The position numbers were made by a program, and so were the translations under genes. Shown here piece after piece: positions 46,821 through 64,000 of a stretch of 64,000 nt of DNA. The stretch lies in assembly GCA_964030785.1 (NCBI GenBank), contig OZ034971.1:31348304-31412303 (forward strand). Reading direction: 5' to 3'. The stretch is from Siderastrea siderea. Lineage: Eukaryota > Cnidaria > Anthozoa > Scleractinia > Rhizangiidae. Position 1 is the first letter of the stretch. Each line of letters starts with the position of its first letter. Under the pieces are notes generated by a model. The model was given only the letters and a program-made list of their open reading frames with translations. It was not told the origin of the DNA and searched no databases.

Positions 46821-47032
46821 ATATGATACCGAACGCATTTTCCATTTTATGGAATCTTTATGTATTTTATTTCATGAGCGCAATTATTTGGATTTGGATA
46901 CTATATGTTTTTATCTCATGATGTATCCAACGCATTCTTCCATCACGTGACGCCAGACTGCAGGAAGTCTATAATTCTCGGAAAACAGGAAGTTTGAATC
47001 ATATAAAAAAATATCTCATATAATAGTATAGA

Positions 47033-47596
47033 ATGAATTGTAACAAGGAATTACATGATGAACTGAAAGAATCAGGAGATATTGTTTGTCCTTTTTGTGA
47101 CCAAAAATTGGAAGATTCTAATGAAAAACCGAAATATGATGAATGCTGTGATAATCAGTATATTATTAATGACGATGGGATGTTAGCCTGTCTAAGTTGT
47201 GGTATTGTTCAAGGATATAATTATGTGAAAGAATATGTTAATTTTTATGAAAATAGACATAAATTTATTAGAAAATCTGTTTACCATCGAGAGTACCACA
47301 TCAGCAACATATTACTCGATATTGAAGAAAAATATAACATTAAAATATCAAAGTGTCAGAAACATAAGATTGGTGCTATATATGTCGAGATAGGTAAGGT
47401 TCTTAATGAAGTTAATGGTACAAGGAAAAGGATGATTAGCGTAAATTTCATTATGAGAAAGATATTCAAGATGATGGGAATACCTTACAAAAATATTCCA
47501 ATTAGTAAATCGAAAAAAACATTAGCTTTTTACAATCGATATTGGGTAAGTATTATGTCTCTTATTGGTGATAAAATAAAATCTATTGTTGAATGA
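47033..47596 (+). CDS. VLTF3-like late transcription factor (zinc protein)
   Basis: 187 residues. The N-terminal part has CPFC at 19-22, CC at 38-39 and a TFIIB-like ribbon half ACLSCGIVQG around 52-61. The rest is a helical domain starting YHREYHISNILLDIE and ending FYNRYW. Zinc ribbon plus this Y-x-R...H...L pattern is what I associate with the A2L/VLTF3 family of late-gene transcription factors of large DNA viruses and Polinton-like elements. If so it would direct late transcription, perhaps from the TCTAA motif seen before virion-type genes. Its own start lacks that motif and follows ATAATAGTATAGAATG, similar to the polymerase gene. It converges on the next gene with 14 nt overlap. The family call rests on pattern recognition, not a search. 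Confidence 0.6.
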   Translation: MNCNKELHDELKESGDIVCPFCDQKLEDSNEKPKYDECCDNQYIINDDGMLACLSCGIVQGYNYVKEYVNFYENRHKFIRKSVYHREYHISNILLDIEEKYNIKISKCQKHKIGAIYVEIGKVLNEVNGTRKRMISVNFIMRKIFKMMGIPYKNIPISKSKKTLAFYNRYWVSIMSLIGDKIKSIVE

Positions 47597-52684: not shown

Positions 52685-53037
52685 ATGGCATCATATGAAT
52701 ACAAGCGAATTTATCACCCGAACCTAGGTCGTTTTGTGTATAAGCATAAAGGATCTGGGATTATTGTTGATAACATATTCAAACCAGTTGGAAGGGTGTT
52801 AAGTAAAGTTCCAGAAATGGTTTTAAAACCTTTTGCTAATTAAAAGCGCTTGAATCTGGTATTTCACATGCTGGAGACAAACTGGGAAAAAAAGCAGCTG
52901 AAAAAAGCGGAGAGCTTATTATGAGAAAATTACATGGTTCAACTAAACAATCAATGAAACCAACCAAACCTACTAAACCAAAACAAGAAGACTACAACAT
53001 GATTCTGAATAGACTTATATCTGGTACTGGTTATTAA
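52685..53037 (+). pseudogene. Small virion-like protein, frameshifted
   Basis: The first frame gives 52 residues starting MASYEYKRIYHPNLGRF and stops at 52841. The -1 frame, open only from 52840, continues with ALESGISHAGDKLGKKAAEK and ends at 53037. Together they would form a basic protein of about 116 residues with an amphipathic, glycine-containing middle. The overlap window is about one base, so ribosomal slippage is not plausible and a lost base in the TTAAAA run is likely. It carries the TCTAAC promoter motif 18 nt before its ATG and lies between the two capsid genes. Confidence 0.55.
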
Positions 53038-53068: not shown

Positions 53069-54358
53069 ATGAGTTTCAGAACAAATGGAAATCTACAACG
53101 ATATGAATACGTTCGTTTCCATTTGGATAATGTCATTGAGCAACCTGCTAATAATCAAAGCCAGAAAAAGACTGGTTACAGATTCACAATCAACGATAGG
53201 TCGACTATGTTCGATTTTTTTAATGGGTATTTCGAAGTAACTAAAGAGCTTCAAAAAAGGGCAGATGGTGCTGGATATGCTGCAGCAGATCGCATAACTA
53301 TGATAAACGGATCTCACAGTCTAATCAGACATATGGTTATCAAATCTTCAGGCAAAATCGTGTATGAGAGTGATAATTTACATAGAATTACGAATGTGAA
53401 AAATCTCCTTGAATACAGTGATGATTTTAGTAGATCTGTTGGAAAGAATTCGTTCTGGTATCTTGATACTGATGATACAACAGCAGATACAAACACAGGT
53501 TTTGAAGCCCGTCGTATTTTAACCCAAGCTAATCAGAATGACGGCGGCGGAGGAGCTAAATCGATTAACGAGATGATTCCGTTAAACAGATACAGCTTTT
53601 TCCAAGAATTAGAAAGAAAAATGTTGCCCCCAATGCAACTCACATTTGAACTTACACTTAATGATGATGCTGAACTTATTCACAAAGCAGCAGCAGCTGA
53701 TGATGGTAGGGTTGTAGTAAAAAGATTGTATCTTTGCCTACCAAGACTAGTTCCAAAAGACAGCATGTATAGTAATTTCGTTTCAGATTTTCTCAAGCCA
53801 ACAACCTGGATATATATGCGAGATATCTACAATCAGTCAGCAAATACCAGAGCTATTCAGAATATGTTTCAAATCAGTCCAGCTATTGATAAGGTTAAAC
53901 ATGTTTTTATTTATCTACAGCGAACAGACGCACCTAATAATGTTGAAGCAGAGAGGAGTCCGTATTTGTTCGATACTTTCAAGTTGAATGCCGCTAACGC
54001 TAACAGCTCTCTATCAAGCTGTAGGATTGAATACGGGAATAACGTTTTTTACCCAGAGCTTGAATATGATAGTGACTCTAAAATACGGATATTTAATGAT
54101 ATAATGTCATATGCATTTCGTAAGAACGATTACAATTCAGGAACACAGCTTAATGTATCAAATTTCACTAGTTTGTATGGATTATTGTATTTCGATTTGT
54201 CATATCAGAAAGAGGTAGTGACGAGAGATCCTAAACAGTTGATTCTCCATTATCGTCTCAATGTAGCCCCGGCAGCAAACGTCCGAGCTCATAGCATAGT
54301 ATTTTATGAGAGTGAGGTTGTAGTAAAGACAGTTGGAAACGAATTGATGATAGTTTAA
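53069..54358 (+). CDS. Major capsid protein, double jelly-roll candidate
   Basis: 429 intact residues, beta-rich, starting MSFRTNGNLQRYEYVRFHL and ending VKTVGNELMIV. Length, gene neighbours (ATPase, penton candidate, protease) and N-terminal pattern fit the Polinton double jelly-roll capsid protein that builds the hexon-like capsomers. A glycine-rich loop (NDGGGGAKS, around residue 155) probably sits at the capsid surface. TCTAAAC lies 18 nt before the ATG, the same spacing as for the penton candidate and the small gene before it. No motif proves the fold by eye; confidence rests on context and general resemblance. Confidence 0.75.
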   Translation: MSFRTNGNLQRYEYVRFHLDNVIEQPANNQSQKKTGYRFTINDRSTMFDFFNGYFEVTKELQKRADGAGYAAADRITMINGSHSLIRHMVIKSSGKIVYESDNLHRITNVKNLLEYSDDFSRSVGKNSFWYLDTDDTTADTNTGFEARRILTQANQNDGGGGAKSINEMIPLNRYSFFQELERKMLPPMQLTFELTLNDDAELIHKAAAADDGRVVVKRLYLCLPRLVPKDSMYSNFVSDFLKPTTWIYMRDIYNQSANTRAIQNMFQISPAIDKVKHVFIYLQRTDAPNNVEAERSPYLFDTFKLNAANANSSLSSCRIEYGNNVFYPELEYDSDSKIRIFNDIMSYAFRKNDYNSGTQLNVSNFTSLYGLLYFDLSYQKEVVTRDPKQLILHYRLNVAPAANVRAHSIVFYESEVVVKTVGNELMIV

Positions 54359-54434: not shown

Positions 54435-55283
54435 ATGACACAACTATACGAAATTAAAGTTAGTTTATCACCAAACCAGAAAAAGAATCTTAGTAACGCG
54501 TATCATAAAAGAGAAACAATAGTTCTAAGGCTTACGAAGGACTCTCTATCTGGGAATGACACTCTATATGTACCTCAGAATATAGTTAAGCGATTGGAAA
54601 AAAATAAGAAATTGAGAAAAGGAATGGACATCAAACTAGCCAAAACAAACATTCGAAAGCAAGTTGGTGGATCACTCCTCTCTACAGTTCTGTCGCTTGG
54701 AAGAACTTTCGCTCCAACGATTGCCAAGACTATTGGATTGTCAGCTTTGGCAGGTTTAGCATCTGAAGGAGCATCTCAGATTGTTAAGAAGATATCTGGA
54801 AAAGGTTTACAAACCGGTGGGTTCCTAATACCACAAAATAAAATCGATAAGTTGATAACATATAAGCATCTTTTGACAACCCAACAAAAGAAGGATATAT
54901 TAAATGCTCTTCAAACTGGTTCTGGTGTTCATATAAAACCAACAAAAGTACAAACAGGTGGGTTCTTAGGCACTCTTCTAGCATCAATTGGAGTCCCTTT
55001 AGCTATTGAGGCAATAAAGAAGATAACTGGTAAAGGTGCCCCTCAGATGGGAAAACCAAAACAAATACCACCCAGATCTGTACCAAAATCAACCAATTAT
55101 AATCAGAATGGTGGTTTGTTAGACCCAATGTATATAACTCCACCTTTTTATGGAAATTGGCCGAATGATACAATCGGTATGGGAATTTCAAAAAAAAAAA
55201 CTCCAAAAAAAAAGGGCGAAGGCCTAATATTAGGCAAAAACTCCCCATTCAAAAACGTACCTCTTCTAAACATTCTATTGTAA
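54435..55283 (+). CDS. Hydrophobic core/virion protein upstream of the protease
   Basis: 282 residues. The N-terminal basic domain (1-75) is followed by two glycine-flanked hydrophobic segments (TVLSLGRTFAPTIAKTIGLS about 85-104; GGFLGTLLASIGVPLAIEAI about 174-193). GG or GKG tripeptides recur (VGGS, TGGF twice, NGG), which are candidate maturation sites for an adenain-like protease. The C-terminal tail is basic (SKKKTPKKKGEG). Proteins of this make-up in Polintons are thought to be membrane-active or core components, by analogy with adenovirus minor proteins. TCTAAC lies 15 nt before the ATG. The last 70 nt overlap the protease frame. Confidence 0.6.
   Translation: MTQLYEIKVSLSPNQKKNLSNAYHKRETIVLRLTKDSLSGNDTLYVPQNIVKRLEKNKKLRKGMDIKLAKTNIRKQVGGSLLSTVLSLGRTFAPTIAKTIGLSALAGLASEGASQIVKKISGKGLQTGGFLIPQNKIDKLITYKHLLTTQQKKDILNALQTGSGVHIKPTKVQTGGFLGTLLASIGVPLAIEAIKKITGKGAPQMGKPKQIPPRSVPKSTNYNQNGGLLDPMYITPPFYGNWPNDTIGMGISKKKTPKKKGEGLILGKNSPFKNVPLLNILL
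55208..55235 (+). promoter_or_regulatory. Candidate -1 ribosomal frameshift site 1 (core protein to protease)
   Basis: A AAA AAG at 55208-55214 is in register with the core-protein frame. A 7-nt spacer follows, then the hairpin GCCTAATATTAGGC (55222-55235). An earlier A10 run (55190-55199) offers further slippery heptamers. The -1 frame is open from 55169 through the protease stop at 55741. Confidence 0.55.
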
Positions 55284-55741
55284 AACCCAAATTTCATAAA
55301 AACATTCCTTTGCCAAATTATGATTTAATAAAATGGTGTAAATATCTGAATATCCCAATTAATGATGTATTGTCAAGAGATGAAAATATTCCTCACGATC
55401 ATATACAAGCTCTATTCATTTACAATCTTGAACCATCATATATGAGCGGTAGCCATTGGGTATCAACGTATGTGAAAGATAACGTCGTCAATTACTTTGA
55501 TAGCTTTGGTTTGCCTCCCTTCCAAGAAATGGTCAATCATGCGAGAAAAAAGAATTTAACATTGCTTCATCAGAACAATCAAATACAAAATTTACTGACG
55601 ACAACATGCGGTTACTTCTGTTTGTACTTTTTGAATGAGATGAATAAGGGTAAATCATATTTTGATCTGTTGGAAGTTTTCGACATATATGATACGACGA
55701 ATAATGAGAGGTTTCTAGAACGGTATTTCAAAAATATGTAA
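55214..55741 (+). CDS. Adenain-like maturation cysteine protease
   Basis: Catalytic His codon at 55454 (GSHWVSTY), Asp at 55499 (NYFDSFG) and Cys at 55607 (TTCGYFCLYF), in the order of adenovirus-type proteases (family C5). They cleave virion precursors at glycine-containing sites during maturation. The family's N-terminal region is visible upstream (NYDLIKWCKYLNIP from about 55316). No AUG precedes it: the first in-frame AUG is at 55442, four codons before the catalytic His. The frame is open back to 55169 and overlaps the core-protein gene. I place the start at the proposed -1 slip point; TTG at 55310 is an alternative. A TCTAAAC at 55265 could mark a separate promoter. Confidence 0.8.
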   Translation, partial: GRRPNIRQKLPIQKRTSSKHSIVKPKFHKNIPLPNYDLIKWCKYLNIPINDVLSRDENIPHDHIQALFIYNLEPSYMSGSHWVSTYVKDNVVNYFDSFGLPPFQEMVNHARKKNLTLLHQNNQIQNLLTTTCGYFCLYFLNEMNKGKSYFDLLEVFDIYDTTNNERFLERYFKNM

Positions 55742-55752
55742 TCAAGTTATAT

Positions 55753-56154
55753 ATGAAATCTTATTGCGTGAAACAAAAAAGGGTCACAGAATGTGTACCT
55801 GGGAGTGAACGATATGTGAGAGCCAAAAATAACAGACTTATGCTTAAATGCATATGCTCTGAATGTGGTATTACTAAGACGAAATTCGTCAAAAGTCAAA
55901 AGGGAGGTGAAAATCCATTAGGTAAAGCTTTCGAGGCAGCCAAAATAGCCGAACAAATAACTCGCAAAGTAATTCCATCAACTAACCATGTATTTGACCG
56001 ATATTGGTCTGGTGATATCTTGAAAGGTGTCTTCACAGGGTCAACAGGTATAACAAGCAAGAAATTCTGGACTAAACCAAAGAAGGGTACTGTTATGCGT
56101 TTGGTGAAAAATCCGAAAACTGGTAAATATGAGAATGTGTACGTTGAACCTTAA
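55753..56154 (+). CDS. Zinc-ribbon protein a (YCVK module plus C-terminal domain)
   Basis: 133 residues. The first 47 form a small zinc-ribbon-like module: SYCVKQKRVTECVPG, then KNNRLMLKC and CSECGITKTKFVK. It resembles the YCVK ribbons found in Polintons and large DNA viruses (DUF5679-like), but the second Cys of the usual YCVKC is Gln. A linker and a domain with FDRYWSGDILKG and a basic tail follow. The next gene begins with a near copy of the module, which points to tandem duplication. An ATATATG context precedes the start without a clear TCTAA. Role unknown; nucleic-acid or protein binding is possible. Confidence 0.6.
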   Translation: MKSYCVKQKRVTECVPGSERYVRAKNNRLMLKCICSECGITKTKFVKSQKGGENPLGKAFEAAKIAEQITRKVIPSTNHVFDRYWSGDILKGVFTGSTGITSKKFWTKPKKGTVMRLVKNPKTGKYENVYVEP

Positions 56155-56165
56155 TCTAATCTAAT
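56155..56165 (+). promoter_or_regulatory. Double TCTAAT motif (zinc ribbon/PLA2)
   Basis: Two overlapping TCTAAT copies, 22 and 17 nt before the ATG at 56177, followed by a TATATATATATATG run. Confidence 0.5.
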
Positions 56166-56176
56166 TATATATATAT

Positions 56177-57024
56177 ATGAGATCATATTGCGTGAAACAA
56201 AAAAAGGTCACAGAATGTGTGCCAGGAAGTGAACGACATGTTAAAGCTAAAAATGGAAGGCTTATGCTTAAATGCACTTGTGCTGAATGTGGTATTACAA
56301 AGACGAAATTCGTTAAACAGGCGGGAAACGGGCTAGCCTGTCGAAAGGGGCGGGCTTACTAGATACAGTAGCATCGACTGGTACTGATTTATTGATTCAC
56401 CACGGTATTCCTTGGCTGGGAAAAAAGGCTGTTGAAATGGGAAGATATTATGGATCAGAAGCCTTGAGAAACCCAAAACTGCAGAAAAAGGCTATCGATT
56501 ATGCTCTGGATAAGTTGAATCCAATGATTCAAAATGTTGGAAGTCAAGCTCTTGATCAATTATCAACCAAAATAAGACCAAATAGAAAGTATAAAACTGA
56601 CAGGAAGGATTTGGATGGTGCTGGTGTTGATATACATAAACTAATTGGGAAAATACCGAAACCAAAAGCTGGATGGACTCCTGGAAAGTATAAATACCTC
56701 GGACCGTACAACCCTCTCGAGAAGCAGTTGGAGTATGACAAGAATACTGGAAATGTGACCAAATGGAATGTGAAACCCCTCAATAAAGTGGATGAAATAG
56801 CAGCTTATCATGATATTTGTTATGACATGGGGAAAAACAAGGGTGAATGTGACAAGAAAATGGTTAAGTCATTAGATGAAATACCTTATGGGGAAATGCC
56901 AAAATGGGGACAAACTGCTCGGTTCTTGATTAATACAAAGCAGAAACTGGGTCTTGGTGTGAAACAAAAGAAGCCAAAAAACGGGAAAGGCCGTCGAGTG
57001 AAGAAAACTGGCAAAAAGAATTAG
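56177..57024 (+). CDS. Zinc-ribbon/phospholipase A2 virion protein, two frames joined by -1 shift
   Basis: Part 1 (56177-56362, 61 codons) repeats the YCVK zinc-ribbon module and stops with TAG. Part 2, in the -1 frame, is open from 56317 to 57024 and has no AUG near its N-terminal end. It contains a helical region (HHGIPWLGKKAVE) and a phospholipase A2 domain: calcium loop YLGPYNPL (56694-56717) and catalytic HDICYD (56809-56826), as in parvovirus VP1. That enzyme lets parvoviruses breach the endosome, so an entry role is inferred. TCTAAT motifs lie 17 and 22 nt before the ATG. The two parts could be linked by slippage at G GGA AAC (56323-56329) or be separated by a lost base. Confidence 0.7.
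56323..56329 (+). promoter_or_regulatory. Candidate -1 frameshift site 2 (zinc ribbon to PLA2)
   Basis: G GGA AAC is in register with the zinc-ribbon frame and inside the only window (56317-56362) where a -1 shift gives a continuous product. This heptamer is the known gag-pro or gag-pol site of some retroviruses. The 40 nt after it are unusually GC-rich for this element and can pair weakly (GGCTAGCC; AGCC with GGCT). Confidence 0.5.
56976..56982 (+). promoter_or_regulatory. Candidate -1 frameshift site 3 (PLA2 to integrase)
   Basis: A AAA AAC is in register with the PLA2 frame, 42 nt before its stop, inside the -1 open window beginning at 56934. A weak bulged hairpin (GCCGT with ACTGGC) follows. 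A AAA AAC is among the most efficient eukaryotic slippery heptamers. Confidence 0.5.
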
Positions 57025-57941
57025 CTGATGAATTACATAAACCTATAAAGCGTAACTTCACCCGGCGGCGAGTAATTGTAAACCATATTGACGAGACATG
57101 GTGTTCAGATATCGTTGAGATGCAAAAATTCAGTCGATGGAATGCTGGCTACAGATATCTTCTGATGGTTTTAGATGTATTCTCTAAATATGGTTGGATT
57201 GTCCCTTTAAAGAACAAAAAAGGAGAAACTGTTGCTGAAGCATTCAAAACAATATTCAAAGAAGGTAGAAAACCACAATATATTTGGACAGACAAAGGCA
57301 AAGAGTATTATAACAAACATGTTAAGGAACTACTTGATAAGAATAAAATAACATTGTACTCAACTGAGAATGAAGAAAAGTCGTCAGTTTGTGAAAGATG
57401 GAACAGAACAATTAAAACCAAGATGTGGAAGCAGTTTACTGTTCAAGGTAATACACAGTATCTTGACATGCTACCTAAATTAGTGAAACATTATAACAAT
57501 ACCAGACATTCAAGCACAAAGATGACACCAACTGAAGCCAGTAAAAAGAAGAATCAAGGAACTGTTTACTTTAATCTGTATGGTAATATGGAAACATCAA
57601 GACAGAAACCAAAGTTCAAAGTCGGTGATAAGGTCAGGATAAGCAAGTACAAACGGAAAGTGTTCGACAAGTCTTATACACCAAACTGGTCTGAGGAAAT
57701 TTTTACAGTTGATGAAATACAACATACCAACCCAATCACATACAAACTGAAGGATCTCAGAGATGAAGACATTCAAGGTAGTTTTTATGAACCTGAATTA
57801 CTGAAAGCTGAACAACAGATATTCAGAATTGATAAAGTTATTCGGAGGGATTATAAAAAGAAGCAAGCTTTAGTTAAGTGGAAGGGGTATAGTGATGAAT
57901 TCAACAGTTGGATACCGTTCAAGGACTTGAAGGATATATAA
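56982..57941 (+). CDS. Retroviral-type (RVE) integrase with chromodomain
   Basis: DDE triad: Asp codon 57108 (TWCSDIVEM), Asp 57291 (IWTDKGKEYY) and Glu 57393 (CERWNRTIK). An N-terminal basic stretch ends RRRVIV and a C-terminal chromodomain holds VKWKGYSDEFNSW. The enzyme inserts element ends into host DNA; the chromodomain may steer it to marked chromatin. The first in-frame AUG (57120) comes after the first catalytic Asp, so an AUG-started product would be dead. The frame is open back to 56934 and overlaps the PLA2 gene in the -1 register. I therefore start it at the proposed slip site. No TCTAA motif or gap precedes it, unlike most of the other virion-type genes. Confidence 0.88.
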   Translation, partial: RERPSSEENWQKELADELHKPIKRNFTRRRVIVNHIDETWCSDIVEMQKFSRWNAGYRYLLMVLDVFSKYGWIVPLKNKKGETVAEAFKTIFKEGRKPQYIWTDKGKEYYNKHVKELLDKNKITLYSTENEEKSSVCERWNRTIKTKMWKQFTVQGNTQYLDMLPKLVKHYNNTRHSSTKMTPTEASKKKNQGTVYFNLYGNMETSRQKPKFKVGDKVRISKYKRKVFDKSYTPNWSEEIFTVDEIQHTNPITYKLKDLRDEDIQGSFYEPELLKAEQQIFRIDKVIRRDYKKKQALVKWKGYSDEFNSWIPFKDLKDI

Positions 57942-59211: not shown

Positions 59212-62200
59212 ATGAATTTAAATAATATGGATAAAGCTAGTTTGAAGAAACTGAGCAAATCGAAACTTATCAAATTGCTTCTTAAGCAGGAGAAGAAACC
59301 AGTTCCAACACAAAGAACATACAAACCAAGGAGGCCAATACCAACACCTCGCAAGAGTGTCGAACAGATGGTAAAGCAGTACGACAATAATATTATTCTA
59401 CCACCAACAGAATTCAGGAATAATTACAAACCAATTCCTGCACCAAGAACTAAACAAAATACTGTTAAAAAACCGGTTCCAACACCAAGAACCATAATAA
59501 AGCAAACAGACAAAGCTTTAAAAGGTTTCACTAAGTCATTTGAAATCGACATTAAAAACAATGAAGACCCCTTAAAACAAATGCAAAACACGAGAAAAGC
59601 TATAGAACATCGTGTAATGACTTTGTTGAATGAAATGAAAGGCTTGAAATACGTTGAAACATTGAAAGTCACTTTCGAAAAAATATTAGCTGATGTAACA
59701 GTCGAAAAGTCAGCATATTTCAATAGTAAATCTCAAACAATCATTAACAATACAGAAATCAATGAAGCATTAGAAATGTCTAAACAAGAGATACTTAATA
59801 AGATAGCTCAATGGATATCAGAAGGTTCAGGATGGACGGTACAATCAGTTGACAACCATTACCTCAACATTGTCACATACAAACCCATGAAAGGATCTTC
59901 ATATATCCCACTACCTTCTGAACTGCGAAACAGTGCTAAGGGACTAATTAACATTAAAAATAAAGATAATGAATGTTTCAGATGGTGTCATATCAGGCAT
60001 ATAAATCCACAAAAGAAATATTCTCAAAGGATTAAAAAAGTTGATAAACCATACGTTAAAAAGTTAGATTACTCAGGTATCGAATTTCCAGTCAGTGTCA
60101 AACATTACAACAAAATCGAGAAGCAAAACAGTATCAATATAAATGTATTCGGATATGAAAACAAACAACCGTACCCCATATATGTTTCCAAAGAAAAGTA
60201 TGAAGATCATATGGAACTACTTATGATAACGGAAAATGAAAACAAGCATTATGTTCTCATAAAGGATTTTAACAAGTTCATGTATAATCAAACAAAACAC
60301 AAAGAGAGGAAACACTTTTGTATGTGGTGTCTGCAATGTTTCAGTTCCGACAGGGTATTGAAAAATCATGAAAACATTTGCATACAAGTGAACGGCACTC
60401 AAGCAATTAAAATGCCAGACAAAAACAATAACATACTGAAATTCAACAACTTCCATAAACAGCAACCTGTACCATTTGTTATATATGCCGATTTTGAGGC
60501 TATAACTGAAAAGGTACAAGGATGTCAACAAGACGGTAATAAATCATACACCGAAGCATACCAAAGACATACAGACTGTGGATATGGTTATAAAGTTGTT
60601 TGCTGTTATGATGACAAATATACAAAAAAAATACAACTATATAGGGGTGAAAAGGCTGTTTACAAATTCATGGAAAATATGTTAGAAGAAGTGAAATACT
60701 GCAAAAAAGTAATGAAAAAACATTTCGATAAACCATTGAGAATGACAAAAGAGAATGAACAGGAATTTGAAAAAGCAAAAGAATGCCACATATGCGATAA
60801 AAAGTATACTGAGAAAGACATTCGAGTCAGAGATCATTGCCATATTACTGGTAAATTCAGAGGCTCAGCTCACCAAGAATGCAATCTGAAACTCAGAGTA
60901 AATCCAAAAGAGATAAAAATTCCTGTTATATTCCATAATTTGAGAGGTTATGACAGTCATTTCATTATGCAAGAAATTGGAGCTATTGTCAAGAATAATA
61001 CATACAAAAATAAGAATGGAGAGGAGAAACAAATGAATATCAATGCTATTCCAAATAACATGGAAAAGTATATGGCTTTCATGCTTGGCAACCATTTGAA
61101 ATTCATCGACAGTTTCCAATTCATGAGTTCAAGTTTGGATAAATTAGTCAGCAACTTACCAGCAGAAGCTTTAAAGTATACAAACAAAAGATTCCGAAAA
61201 GAAAAATTAAATCTTATGACGCGAAAAGGTATTTATCCGTATGATTACATGGACAGTTTTGAGAAATTCAATAAAACAGAATTACCAACTAAACAAGAAT
61301 TTTACAGCATATTGAATAATGAGCATATAACAAATGAGGATTATTGTCATGCTCAAAAAGTATGGAATACATTCCAATTACAAACGATGGGCGAATACCA
61401 CAATCTATATCTTAAGTCTGATATACTTCTATTAGCCGACGTGTTTGAAAACTTCCGCAAAACATGTCTTCAGTATTACAAACTTGACCCCTGTCACTAC
61501 TTCACTAGCCCGGGTTTGAGTTGGGACGCCATGTTGAAAATGACGGATATTAAATTGGAACTGATGACTGACATTGATATGTTTCAATTCATTGAAAAAG
61601 ATATGCGTGGTGGTATATCTTATATTGCCAATCGATATGGAAAAGCAAACAATAAGTACATGAGAGAATACAATGAGAATGAACCCTCAAAATACATTAT
61701 GTATCTTGATGCTAATAATTTATACGGTTGGGCTATGAGCCAATATCTTCCAACTGGTGGTTTCAAATGGATGACAAAAAAGCAGATTAATAAAATCAAT
61801 ATAGCTCAGTATAATGAAGACAGTAATAAAGGATTAATACTAGAAGTTGATCTAGAATATCCTAAAGAGTTGCATGAATTACATAACGACTACCCATTAG
61901 CTGCTGAGAGGGTTTGTGTAAATAAAGATATGCTGTCTGAGTATTGTAAGAAAATACAAAAAAAATTCAACATATCAACAGGATTGGTACACAAACTGAT
62001 CCCTACTTTATATGACAAAGAAAAATATATTTTACACTACAGAAACCTGCAGCTGTATCTTGATCTTGGATTGAAAGTGAAGAAAGTTCATCGAGTATTA
62101 GAATTCAACCAGTCTCCATGGCTCAAGCAATATATAGACTTCAATACACTAAAACGTACTCAAGCGAAAAATTCATTCGAAAAAGACTTCTTCAAACTTA

Positions 62201-62970
62201 TGAATAACTCAGTATTCGGTAAAACTATGGAAAATATAAGAAAACGTGTAGATGTAAGACTTGTGACTGATGATAAGAAATTATTAAAGATGGCTTCCAA
62301 ACCTACTTATGTAAGCAGTAAGATCTTCAACGAAAATCTAGTTGCAGTGCATAAAATAAAGGAAACACTTACTTTAAACAGGCCAGCATATATTGGAATG
62401 TGTATTCTTGATCTGAGCAAGACATTGATGTATGATTTCCATTATAGCTACATAAAAGAAAAATATGGCAACAAAGCCAAATTATTATTCACAGACACAG
62501 ACTCATTAACATATGAAATCGAAGCCGAAGATGTCTACAGAGACTTTTGGAATGATAAAGATCGATTTGACAACAGCGACTACCCTGAAAGCTCGTCGTA
62601 TTTCGATAATACAAACAAAAAGGTAATTGGCAAATTTAAAGATGAAGCTTGCGGTATCCCAATAACAGAATTCGTCGGTTTGCGATCAAAAATGTACAGT
62701 TACATCAAAGACAATAATAAAGGCGGAAAAACAGCCAAGGGAATTAAGAAAAATATAATAAAAAACAACATCAAACATCAAGACTACAAAAACGTTTTAT
62801 TAGAAAATAAACAAATACATCACACAATGAAAACTATTCGAAGCAGCAAACATCTAATAGGAAGTTATGAAATAAACAAAGTATCACTAAGCTGCTTCGA
62901 TGACAAAAGATATATAGCAACTAATGGAATACAAAGTTCAGCCTACGGTCATTACAAATTACAATTCTAA
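59212..62970 (+). CDS. polB: Protein-primed family B DNA polymerase
   Basis: 1252 intact residues. The N-terminal 90 residues hold repeated proline motifs (PVPTQR, PIPTPR, PIPAPR, PVPTPR). The 3'-5' exonuclease motifs are YADFEA (425), FHNLRGYDSH (574) and YLKSDILLLADVF (733). Between the first two sits a zinc/HNH module like endonuclease VII (CHICDKKY, then DHCHITGKFRGS, from 524). Polymerase motif A is YLDANNLYGWAMS (830), B is KLMNNSVFGKT (995) and C is FTDTDS (1093). Such enzymes prime on a terminal protein and copy linear DNA with inverted repeats. The promoter is TATATATATAGAATG with no TCTAA, consistent with early expression. The end overlaps the next, opposing gene by 12 nt. Confidence 0.95.
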   Translation: MNLNNMDKASLKKLSKSKLIKLLLKQEKKPVPTQRTYKPRRPIPTPRKSVEQMVKQYDNNIILPPTEFRNNYKPIPAPRTKQNTVKKPVPTPRTIIKQTDKALKGFTKSFEIDIKNNEDPLKQMQNTRKAIEHRVMTLLNEMKGLKYVETLKVTFEKILADVTVEKSAYFNSKSQTIINNTEINEALEMSKQEILNKIAQWISEGSGWTVQSVDNHYLNIVTYKPMKGSSYIPLPSELRNSAKGLINIKNKDNECFRWCHIRHINPQKKYSQRIKKVDKPYVKKLDYSGIEFPVSVKHYNKIEKQNSININVFGYENKQPYPIYVSKEKYEDHMELLMITENENKHYVLIKDFNKFMYNQTKHKERKHFCMWCLQCFSSDRVLKNHENICIQVNGTQAIKMPDKNNNILKFNNFHKQQPVPFVIYADFEAITEKVQGCQQDGNKSYTEAYQRHTDCGYGYKVVCCYDDKYTKKIQLYRGEKAVYKFMENMLEEVKYCKKVMKKHFDKPLRMTKENEQEFEKAKECHICDKKYTEKDIRVRDHCHITGKFRGSAHQECNLKLRVNPKEIKIPVIFHNLRGYDSHFIMQEIGAIVKNNTYKNKNGEEKQMNINAIPNNMEKYMAFMLGNHLKFIDSFQFMSSSLDKLVSNLPAEALKYTNKRFRKEKLNLMTRKGIYPYDYMDSFEKFNKTELPTKQEFYSILNNEHITNEDYCHAQKVWNTFQLQTMGEYHNLYLKSDILLLADVFENFRKTCLQYYKLDPCHYFTSPGLSWDAMLKMTDIKLELMTDIDMFQFIEKDMRGGISYIANRYGKANNKYMREYNENEPSKYIMYLDANNLYGWAMSQYLPTGGFKWMTKKQINKINIAQYNEDSNKGLILEVDLEYPKELHELHNDYPLAAERVCVNKDMLSEYCKKIQKKFNISTGLVHKLIPTLYDKEKYILHYRNLQLYLDLGLKVKKVHRVLEFNQSPWLKQYIDFNTLKRTQAKNSFEKDFFKLMNNSVFGKTMENIRKRVDVRLVTDDKKLLKMASKPTYVSSKIFNENLVAVHKIKETLTLNRPAYIGMCILDLSKTLMYDFHYSYIKEKYGNKAKLLFTDTDSLTYEIEAEDVYRDFWNDKDRFDNSDYPESSSYFDNTNKKVIGKFKDEACGIPITEFVGLRSKMYSYIKDNNKGGKTAKGIKKNIIKNNIKHQDYKNVLLENKQIHHTMKTIRSSKHLIGSYEINKVSLSCFDDKRYIATNGIQSSAYGHYKLQF

Positions 62971-63752: not shown

Positions 63753-64000
63753 AAACTTCCTGCTTTTCCGATAATTATAAACTTCCTGCAGTCAGACGTC
63801 ACGAGATGAAAGAATGCGTTGGATACATCATGAAATAAAACATATAGTATCCAAATACAAAATAATTGTGCCCATGAAATAAAATACATATAGATTACCA
63901 TAAAAATAAAAACATATAGTTTTCCATAAAATAAAATACATATAGATTTCCATAAAAATAATGTCCATCTGATGGAAAGTAGTTCTAGAGTTGGGTTTGG
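63753..64000. repeat. Right terminal inverted repeat (outer end cut off)
   Basis: Complement of the left repeat from AAACTTCC inward to GGGTTTGG at the window edge. It contains three tandem ATGGAAATCTATATGT-like units and lacks the two 107-bp structured blocks of the left copy. About 40 bp of the outer hairpin is expected beyond the window. Confidence 0.85.

Follow-up and report, generated by a model that had tools for sequence, protein, structure and literature searches.

Double -1 ribosomal frameshifting occurs in the gag-pro-pol genes of retroviruses, with G GGA AAC in Mason-Pfizer and simian retroviruses and A AAA AAC in MMTV. In LTR retrotransposons, the same fusion is either permanent, as a single ORF, or made by slippage in related elements. 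Polintons are viewed as connecting transposons with dsDNA viruses, and we know of no account of the way in which they express their integrase and package it. In the adintoviruses, animal DNA viruses of a related class, possible -1 slippage has been proposed for the penton genes, where KnotInFrame predicted a site near the 3' end that would yield an alternate C terminus (PMC11071296). This proposal differs from the one made below in that it concerns the penton gene and, in the available part of that paper, makes no link to PLA2 or integrase. Serial-frameshift expression of PLA2 and integrase was not described in the available parts of the Polinton and adintovirus literature found, which included PMC8097293, PMC12567637, PMC3671162, PMC10120064, PMC8547959, PMC6905037 and PMC12721341. 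An earlier note on this DNA knew of no description of programmed frameshifting as an expression strategy in such elements, which, within this literature, stands for PLA2 and integrase but not quite for the adintovirus penton ORFs.

The window analysed here is a stretch of 64,000 nt from Siderastrea siderea (GCA_964030785.1, contig OZ034971.1, 31,348,304-31,412,303 of the forward strand). It contains an element with terminal inverted repeats at 46909-46985 and 63764-63840 and a match to the packaging ATPase family Pox_A32. Its sequence features are those of a Polinton/Maverick (adintovirus-like) element, sharing with Polintons and adintoviruses an rve integrase with a chromodomain, an A32-like ATPase, the inverted repeats and an adenain-like protease, this last matching Peptidase_C5 (Pfam) only through the relative P0349. 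It would differ from them in expressing PLA2 and integrase by serial frameshifts. Neither the window protease ORF nor the PX-like ORF, for which "PX" is a working name, had a Pfam match. The sole Pfam match in 59212-62970 was Endonuclease_7, and searches of Pfam and of PDB sequences with the capsid candidate at 53069-54358 gave no match. A frame change without a heptamer breaks a small gene at 52685-53037.

Table 1. Coordinates of the late genes and candidate recoding signals in the window.
Feature	Position	Strand	Remarks
PX-like late ORF, zero-frame product of junction 1	54435..55283	+	C-terminal tail overlaps protease frame
Adenain-like protease ORF, -1 frame of PX-like	55169..55741	+	No AUG before domain in window copy
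A-rich slip region, junction 1 (11 A; later 9 A then G)	55190..55214	+	Holds in-register A AAA AAA and A AAA AAG
First zinc-ribbon gene	55753..56154	+	Tandem paralogue of second zinc ribbon over ~52 residues
Second zinc-ribbon ORF (DUF5679), zero-frame product of junction 2	56177..56362	+	Pfam match at cut-off
PLA2 ORF, parvovirus-type, PF08398 (Phospholip_A2_4)	56317..57024	+	-1 frame of ribbon; Pfam
Slippery heptamer G GGA AAC, in register	56323..56329	+	Conserved among copies
Candidate stimulatory hairpin	56335..56356	+	Predicted; arms 56335-56342 / 56349-56356, loop 56343-56348, spacer 56330-56334
Integrase ORF, rve + Chromo	56934..57941	+	-1 frame of PLA2; Pfam
Slippery heptamer A AAA AAC, in register	56976..56982	+	T TTA AAC in two other copies

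Three junctions are considered: PX-like to protease, zinc ribbon to PLA2, and PLA2 to integrase (junctions 1, 2 and 3). At each of them the downstream ORF lies in the -1 frame of its predecessor and a canonical heptamer stands in register with the upstream frame, that of junction 1 being A AAA AAG at 55208-55214. Frame analysis and ATG scans of the window confirmed this arrangement, which the earlier note had described, as well as its observation that the three enzymes lack a usable AUG. The PLA2 frame has no ATG between the in-frame stop before it and a point 60 nt into the match. The integrase frame has none through ORF residue 60, nor does the protease frame ahead of its domain; the first ATG in the integrase frame, at 57120, is within the rve match. 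Ten ORFs of this element contain 0.008 canonical heptamers in register per codon, so that 0.12 would be expected by chance in the second overlap and 0.24 in the third. G GGA AAC was found in register in none of these ten ORFs, a set to which the ribbon ORF that carries it does not belong. The case for the heptamers rests on their conservation and not on a single occurrence.

The late mRNA of this Polinton very probably carries two serial programmed -1 ribosomal frameshifts, the first from ribbon to PLA2 and the second from PLA2 to integrase. The basis for this reading is the frames, the heptamers, the predicted stem, their conservation and the selection on each ORF, from which we infer slippage and its rate. 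Most ribosomes would terminate shortly past the zinc-ribbon protein. Some would slip on G GGA AAC, aided by a GC-rich hairpin that lies shortly after it, to make ribbon-PLA2, and some of those would slip again on A AAA AAC, or on T TTA AAC in two copies, to make a ribbon-PLA2-integrase fusion that would bring the integrase into the particle. As a result of these serial slips, most or all of the PLA2 and integrase would be produced as C-terminal extensions of the ribbon protein that are less abundant than the ribbon alone. The arrangement resembles retroviral gag-pro-pol in its two in-register canonical heptamers in series, its enzymes as C-terminal extensions and the terminal position of the integrase. 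In contrast to the retroviral systems, it belongs to a Polinton-type DNA element, begins with a short zinc ribbon, has PLA2 as its middle enzyme and possesses no evident stimulator at the second site, and slippage is predicted from sequence. A wider scheme is put forward tentatively, as a real possibility: two, perhaps three, serial -1 frameshifts may set the amounts of protease, PLA2 and integrase that are made as extensions of particle proteins, the integrase may enter the particle as ribbon-PLA2-integrase, and the slips may have become permanent fusions in related lineages. If conserved serial frameshifts do operate, they would give Polintons a retrovirus-like control of enzyme ratios and integrase delivery.

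The conservation of these features was assessed in 101 copies read out of 141 places found, all in the same genome, with smaller subsets of 67 copies for the AUG and heptamer-per-overlap counts and 40 copies for junction 1. The copies share ancestry, and counts over them are not independent observations. The offset is -1 in 99 of the 101 copies at junction 2 and in all 100 scoreable copies at junction 3, including L030, which has a later lesion. The dN/dS ratios are 0.148 for the ribbon (median dS 0.55, 65 usable copies), 0.185 for PLA2 (median dS 0.32, 45 usable copies) and 0.111 for the integrase (median dS 0.44, 65 usable copies). The earlier note had cautioned that bases lost in homopolymers would also appear as -1 shifts, and this element family does have lesions, among them the broken small gene, internal indels in L030, L058 and L063, and stops that close the overlap, a point against programmed slippage there, in L008 at junction 2 and in four copies at junction 3 (L040, L057, L058 and L061). 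However, since the copies have diverged yet remain under purifying selection, with offsets conserved throughout, it is extremely improbable that the offsets at junctions 2 and 3 arose through lesions in decayed copies or through sequencing errors in homopolymers, and this explanation, together with assembly error, was rejected for these two junctions; junction 2, moreover, is not a homopolymer. From each heptamer onward, synonymous variation drops sharply. Only 5 of 514 analysis windows are as low as junction 2, three of the other four being at junction 3, and 1 of 496 is as low as junction 3, namely junction 3 itself. This calm is partly expected where two frames overlap, and 33-44% of PLA2 and integrase columns are without synonymous variation in any case.

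At junction 2, the G GGA AAC heptamer is in register in 99 of the 101 copies overall and in 98 of those with the -1 offset. Two of the 101 copies are read in a single frame here. In copy L096 the heptamer is deleted. A script found exactly one canonical heptamer in 65 of 67 overlaps and none in the rest. Downstream of the heptamer by 6-7 nt, a 7-bp stem is predicted in 100 of 101 copies; including the outer pair, which the window copy has, shortens the spacer to 5 nt. Junction 2 combines an in-register X XXY YYZ heptamer and a -1 offset with a predicted RNA structure at 5-9 nt. The stem takes 37 distinct forms with variable loops and spacers, and a control with slid arms pairs at 37-58%; in 67 copies (28 forms) all pairs are standard. 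The form seen in L021 and L036, which is found in seven copies, has three pairs changed, two of them on both sides, and a stop codon directly after the heptamer. A pseudoknot between the loop and downstream sequence was also considered by eye and was unsupported, as the loop sequence varies (GAAAGG, GACAGG, GTCAGG and others). An Rfam search returned no match to a frameshift family and one sub-threshold match on the other strand.

At junction 3, the heptamer is A AAA AAC in 97 of the 100 scoreable copies, T TTA AAC in two and A AAA AAA in one. T TTA AAC occupies the same register, and its presence in two copies requires two changes on the integrase tree. By script, 61 of 67 overlaps contain exactly one canonical heptamer and the rest none. 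The in-register heptamer and -1 offset are found here as well. A stem was looked for as the RNA structure expected 5-9 nt downstream, and none that is both strong and conserved was found in the 46 nt that follow A AAA AAC. Joining of the frames by short introns could be suggested by P0190, an annotated hypothetical protein from Oculina patagonica in which the PLA2-integrase overlap region is missing, as though joined. However, a GT-AG stretch in the junction 2 overlap would span ~26 nt and the junction 3 overlap is purine-rich and lacks a pyrimidine tract (both by eye), and integrase-frame residues in the latter are conserved among relatives (W10, E17 and L18 are invariant), all of which makes introns highly implausible. 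Independent initiation of PLA2 and integrase, from an internal AUG, a non-AUG start or by termination-reinitiation, is unlikely. An AUG precedes the catalytic domain in the integrase frame in 32 of 67 copies, and alternative integrase starts are possible there; 8 of 101 copies have an AUG at the integrase start, which overlaps the PLA2 stop in all seven inspected, and in some relatives the PLA2 frame has a methionine within the ribbon gene. In contrast, AUG is absent from the PLA2 frame near junction 2 in 64 of 67 copies and from the integrase frame in 35 of 67, and independent starts leave the conserved in-register heptamers, the stem and the T TTA AAC swap unexplained. In the copies read, the M of MSNYDDWA predictions is encoded by TTG, and that of MSEEENWQ predictions is assumed to be TTG also. 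Serial frameshifting, if true, would account for the odd starts and joins in predicted proteins of PLA2 and integrase genes.

Related proteins include both arrangements. Among the 120 PLA2 clusters listed, 29 show a -1 continuation from ribbon to PLA2 and nine a single frame (script). Among the 120 integrase clusters listed, 15 show a -1 continuation from PLA2 to integrase (16 by script, with P0121 set aside) and 34 a single frame (script, Pfam and eye). The single-frame relatives include P0002 (147 member sequences, matching copy L096) and P0032 (73) at ribbon-PLA2, P0136 (98) at PLA2-integrase, and P0127 (4), in which ribbon, PLA2 and integrase are all joined. Because these relatives are read in one frame, the fusion seems to be permanent in some lineages. 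Permanent and slippage-made fusions also coexist among related LTR retrotransposons, which are a different class of element. Searches of viral and prokaryote contig collections confirmed no relatives. The earlier note had named two observations that would refute programmed slippage, intact relatives with a single frame across the junctions and AUG codons at the enzyme starts, and each exists in part. Clusters such as P0136 might further suggest that the -1 copies are non-autonomous elements relying on less common copies in which the genes are permanently fused in frame. This is very unlikely, given the purifying selection on the integrase of the -1 copies and the scarcity of one-frame copies, which number two at junction 2 and none at junction 3. 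If the serial frameshifts do operate, the family, with its stem forms, heptamer swap and in-frame relatives, would offer a diverged natural set for studying the gain and loss of frameshift sites.

Junction 1 is a separate and weaker claim, and the signal that the earlier note proposed there was not established. The offset in 40 copies is -1 in 27, +1 in 11 and 0 in two. Among the 27, the proposed A AAA AAG is present in nine and A AAA AAA in 26, and 25 have no AUG for the protease. Slippage at the protease junction is possible. A plausible reading, though short of a probable one, is that the ribosome or the polymerase slips on poly-A to produce a PX-protease fusion, or that the offset is unused and the protease starts elsewhere. 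In favor of this reading are the prevalence of the -1 offset and of A AAA AAA, the rarity of an AUG among the 27 and the methionine with which the protease begins in some relatives. Against it are the 13 copies with other offsets and the variable length of the poly-A tract at this junction, whose runs range from 8 to 21.

The late block of the Polinton-type element, which resides in a genome of 831 Mb, has the gene order PX-like ORF, protease, two zinc-ribbon genes, PLA2, and integrase. The protease, PLA2, and integrase are each in the -1 frame relative to the preceding ORF, with in-register heptamers at the positions named in the earlier note. The reading of these heptamers as conserved -1 signals is supported for the passages from the second zinc ribbon to PLA2 (junction 2) and from PLA2 to the integrase (junction 3), where the offset is -1 in 99 of 101 and in 100 of 100 copies, respectively. 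It is not established for the passage from the PX-like ORF to the protease (junction 1), where site and offset are less conserved. The counts at junctions 2 and 3 make it unlikely that the offsets are lesions.

Features of the element and their positions in the window
Feature	Position	Remark
Inverted repeat	46909-46985	
ORF matching poxvirus late transcription factor VLTF3	47033-47596	match slightly over Pfam cut-off
Small gene ahead of the capsid candidate	52685-53037	split by a frame change
First zinc-ribbon gene	55753-56154	
Second zinc-ribbon gene	56177-56362	
Junction 2 heptamer	56323-56329	G GGA AAC
Junction 3 heptamer	56976-56982	A AAA AAC
Inverted repeat	63764-63840	

The copies were collected by querying this genome with the integrase protein, which gave at least 141 places. 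Of these, 101 were read (67 as 3.8-kb and 34 as 0.8-kb stretches), all drawn from a single similarity-ranked list, with more distant copies absent from the sample. L031-L033, which repeat three of the first 30 copies, were excluded from the counts at junctions 2 and 3. The heptamer at junction 2 is G GGA AAC in 98 copies and A GGA AAC in one (L048), and the overlap is closed by a stop in L008. The two remaining copies, L081 and L096, have a single frame; in L096 a deletion removes the heptamer and brings ribbon and PLA2 into one frame. At junction 3, 100 of the 101 copies could be scored, the junction being deleted in L039; L030, for which the script gave another offset owing to a later lesion, is -1 at the junction itself on inspection. 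The heptamers there are A AAA AAC (97 copies), T TTA AAC (L042 and L062), and A AAA AAA (L081), and a stop closes the overlap in L040, L057, L058, and L061. Fused copies could in principle serve the others in trans, but this is unlikely given that single-frame copies number two of 101 at junction 2 and none of 100 at junction 3.

Of 101 copies, 100 have a predicted GC-rich 7-bp stem 6-7 nt after the junction 2 heptamer. Counting an outer pair shortens the spacer to 5 nt in some of them, the window copy among these. The stem takes 37 distinct forms, all selected for having a 7-bp stem, so that pairing within them is 100% by construction. The informative results are the failure of only one copy (L096) and the pairing of just 37-58% when the arms are slid. 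Every stem change preserves standard pairing in the 67-copy set, whose 28 forms were likewise chosen by best stem. In seven copies the stem differs at three pairs, with both partners replaced in two of them, and the heptamer is immediately followed by a stop codon. No conserved stem was found 3' of the junction 3 heptamer.

PLA2 has no AUG near junction 2 in 64 of 67 copies. The motif AAATGAGCTGG occurs at junction 3 in L015, L016, L043, L052, L053, L055, L064, and L079; in the first seven, which were inspected, the PLA2 stop overlaps an integrase-frame AUG as AUGA and the heptamer is retained. It is possible that the integrase is started independently of the upstream ORF, as an AUG is present at its start in eight of 101 copies and in frame upstream of the catalytic domain in 32 of 67. 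However, the other 35 lack such an in-frame AUG, and independent starts leave the heptamers and stem unexplained. Under the frameshifting model, most ribosomes would finish at the ribbon protein, a minority would slip and append PLA2, and part of these would slip again and append the integrase. The first slip is probably stimulated by the predicted junction 2 stem, and the full fusion might carry the integrase into particles, by analogy with retroviruses.

The junction states T TTA AAC, AUGA, and the different stem fit the integrase tree of 67 copies poorly, requiring two, five, and two changes, respectively. These counts point to exchange between copies or repeated change, and the poor fit suggests exchange.

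All three genes show low dN/dS (ribbon 0.148, PLA2 0.185, and integrase 0.111, with median dS of 0.55, 0.32, and 0.44, from 65, 45, and 65 usable copies). Synonymous variation falls starting at the heptamers of junctions 2 and 3, which is partly accounted for by the overlapping frames. Only five of 514 windows are as low as junction 2, counting itself and three at junction 3, and only junction 3 itself among 496 is as low as junction 3. Many single columns outside the junctions vary equally little.

At junction 1, the offsets in 40 copies (L031-L070) are -1 in 27, +1 in 11, and 0 in two; an alternative anchor in an earlier script gave 26, 12, and 2. Among the 27, the proposed A AAA AAG is present in nine and A AAA AAA in 26, and the protease lacks an AUG in 25. 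The longest A run varies from 8 to 21 across the 40 copies, and slippage by either ribosome or polymerase is plausible.

Related proteins were counted on the assumption that database proteins are contiguous ORFs. Among the best 120 of 1678 PLA2 matches, the script found 29 that extend in the ribbon's -1 frame and nine with ribbon and PLA2 in a single frame, overlooking a tenth (P0060); the rest start later or differ. By eye, the protein letters of all 29 show GK or KK at the point where, in that frame, a G GGA AAC or A AAA AAC site would be translated. Script, Pfam, and visual inspection together sort the best 120 of 7232 integrase matches into 15 that continue in PLA2's -1 frame, 34 in which a single protein contains both PLA2 and integrase, and 71 that begin too late to judge. 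The offsets thus do not seem confined to this genome, and some relatives seem to carry permanent fusions. Joining of the frames by introns is unlikely in light of the copy and relative counts, although the Oculina patagonica protein P0190, the only organism-named entry among the integrase matches listed, looks joined rather than contiguous. Among the integrase matches listed, the largest fused cluster is P0136 (98 member sequences). Judging from their protein letters, P0158 and P0179 read as if they use T TTA AAC. Cluster P0002 (147 members) reads ribbon and PLA2 in one frame, as in L096. No description of frameshift expression of Polinton PLA2 or integrase was found in the mainly open-access literature searched, the original adintovirus description aside; one preprint suggests slippage in adintovirus penton genes (PMC11071296).

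The tandem zinc-ribbon genes share about 79% identity across 52 residues; one has its own C-terminal part and the other runs into PLA2 and integrase. In contrast to the junctions, the frame change in the small gene ahead of the capsid candidate has almost no overlap and no heptamer, and looks like a real lesion.
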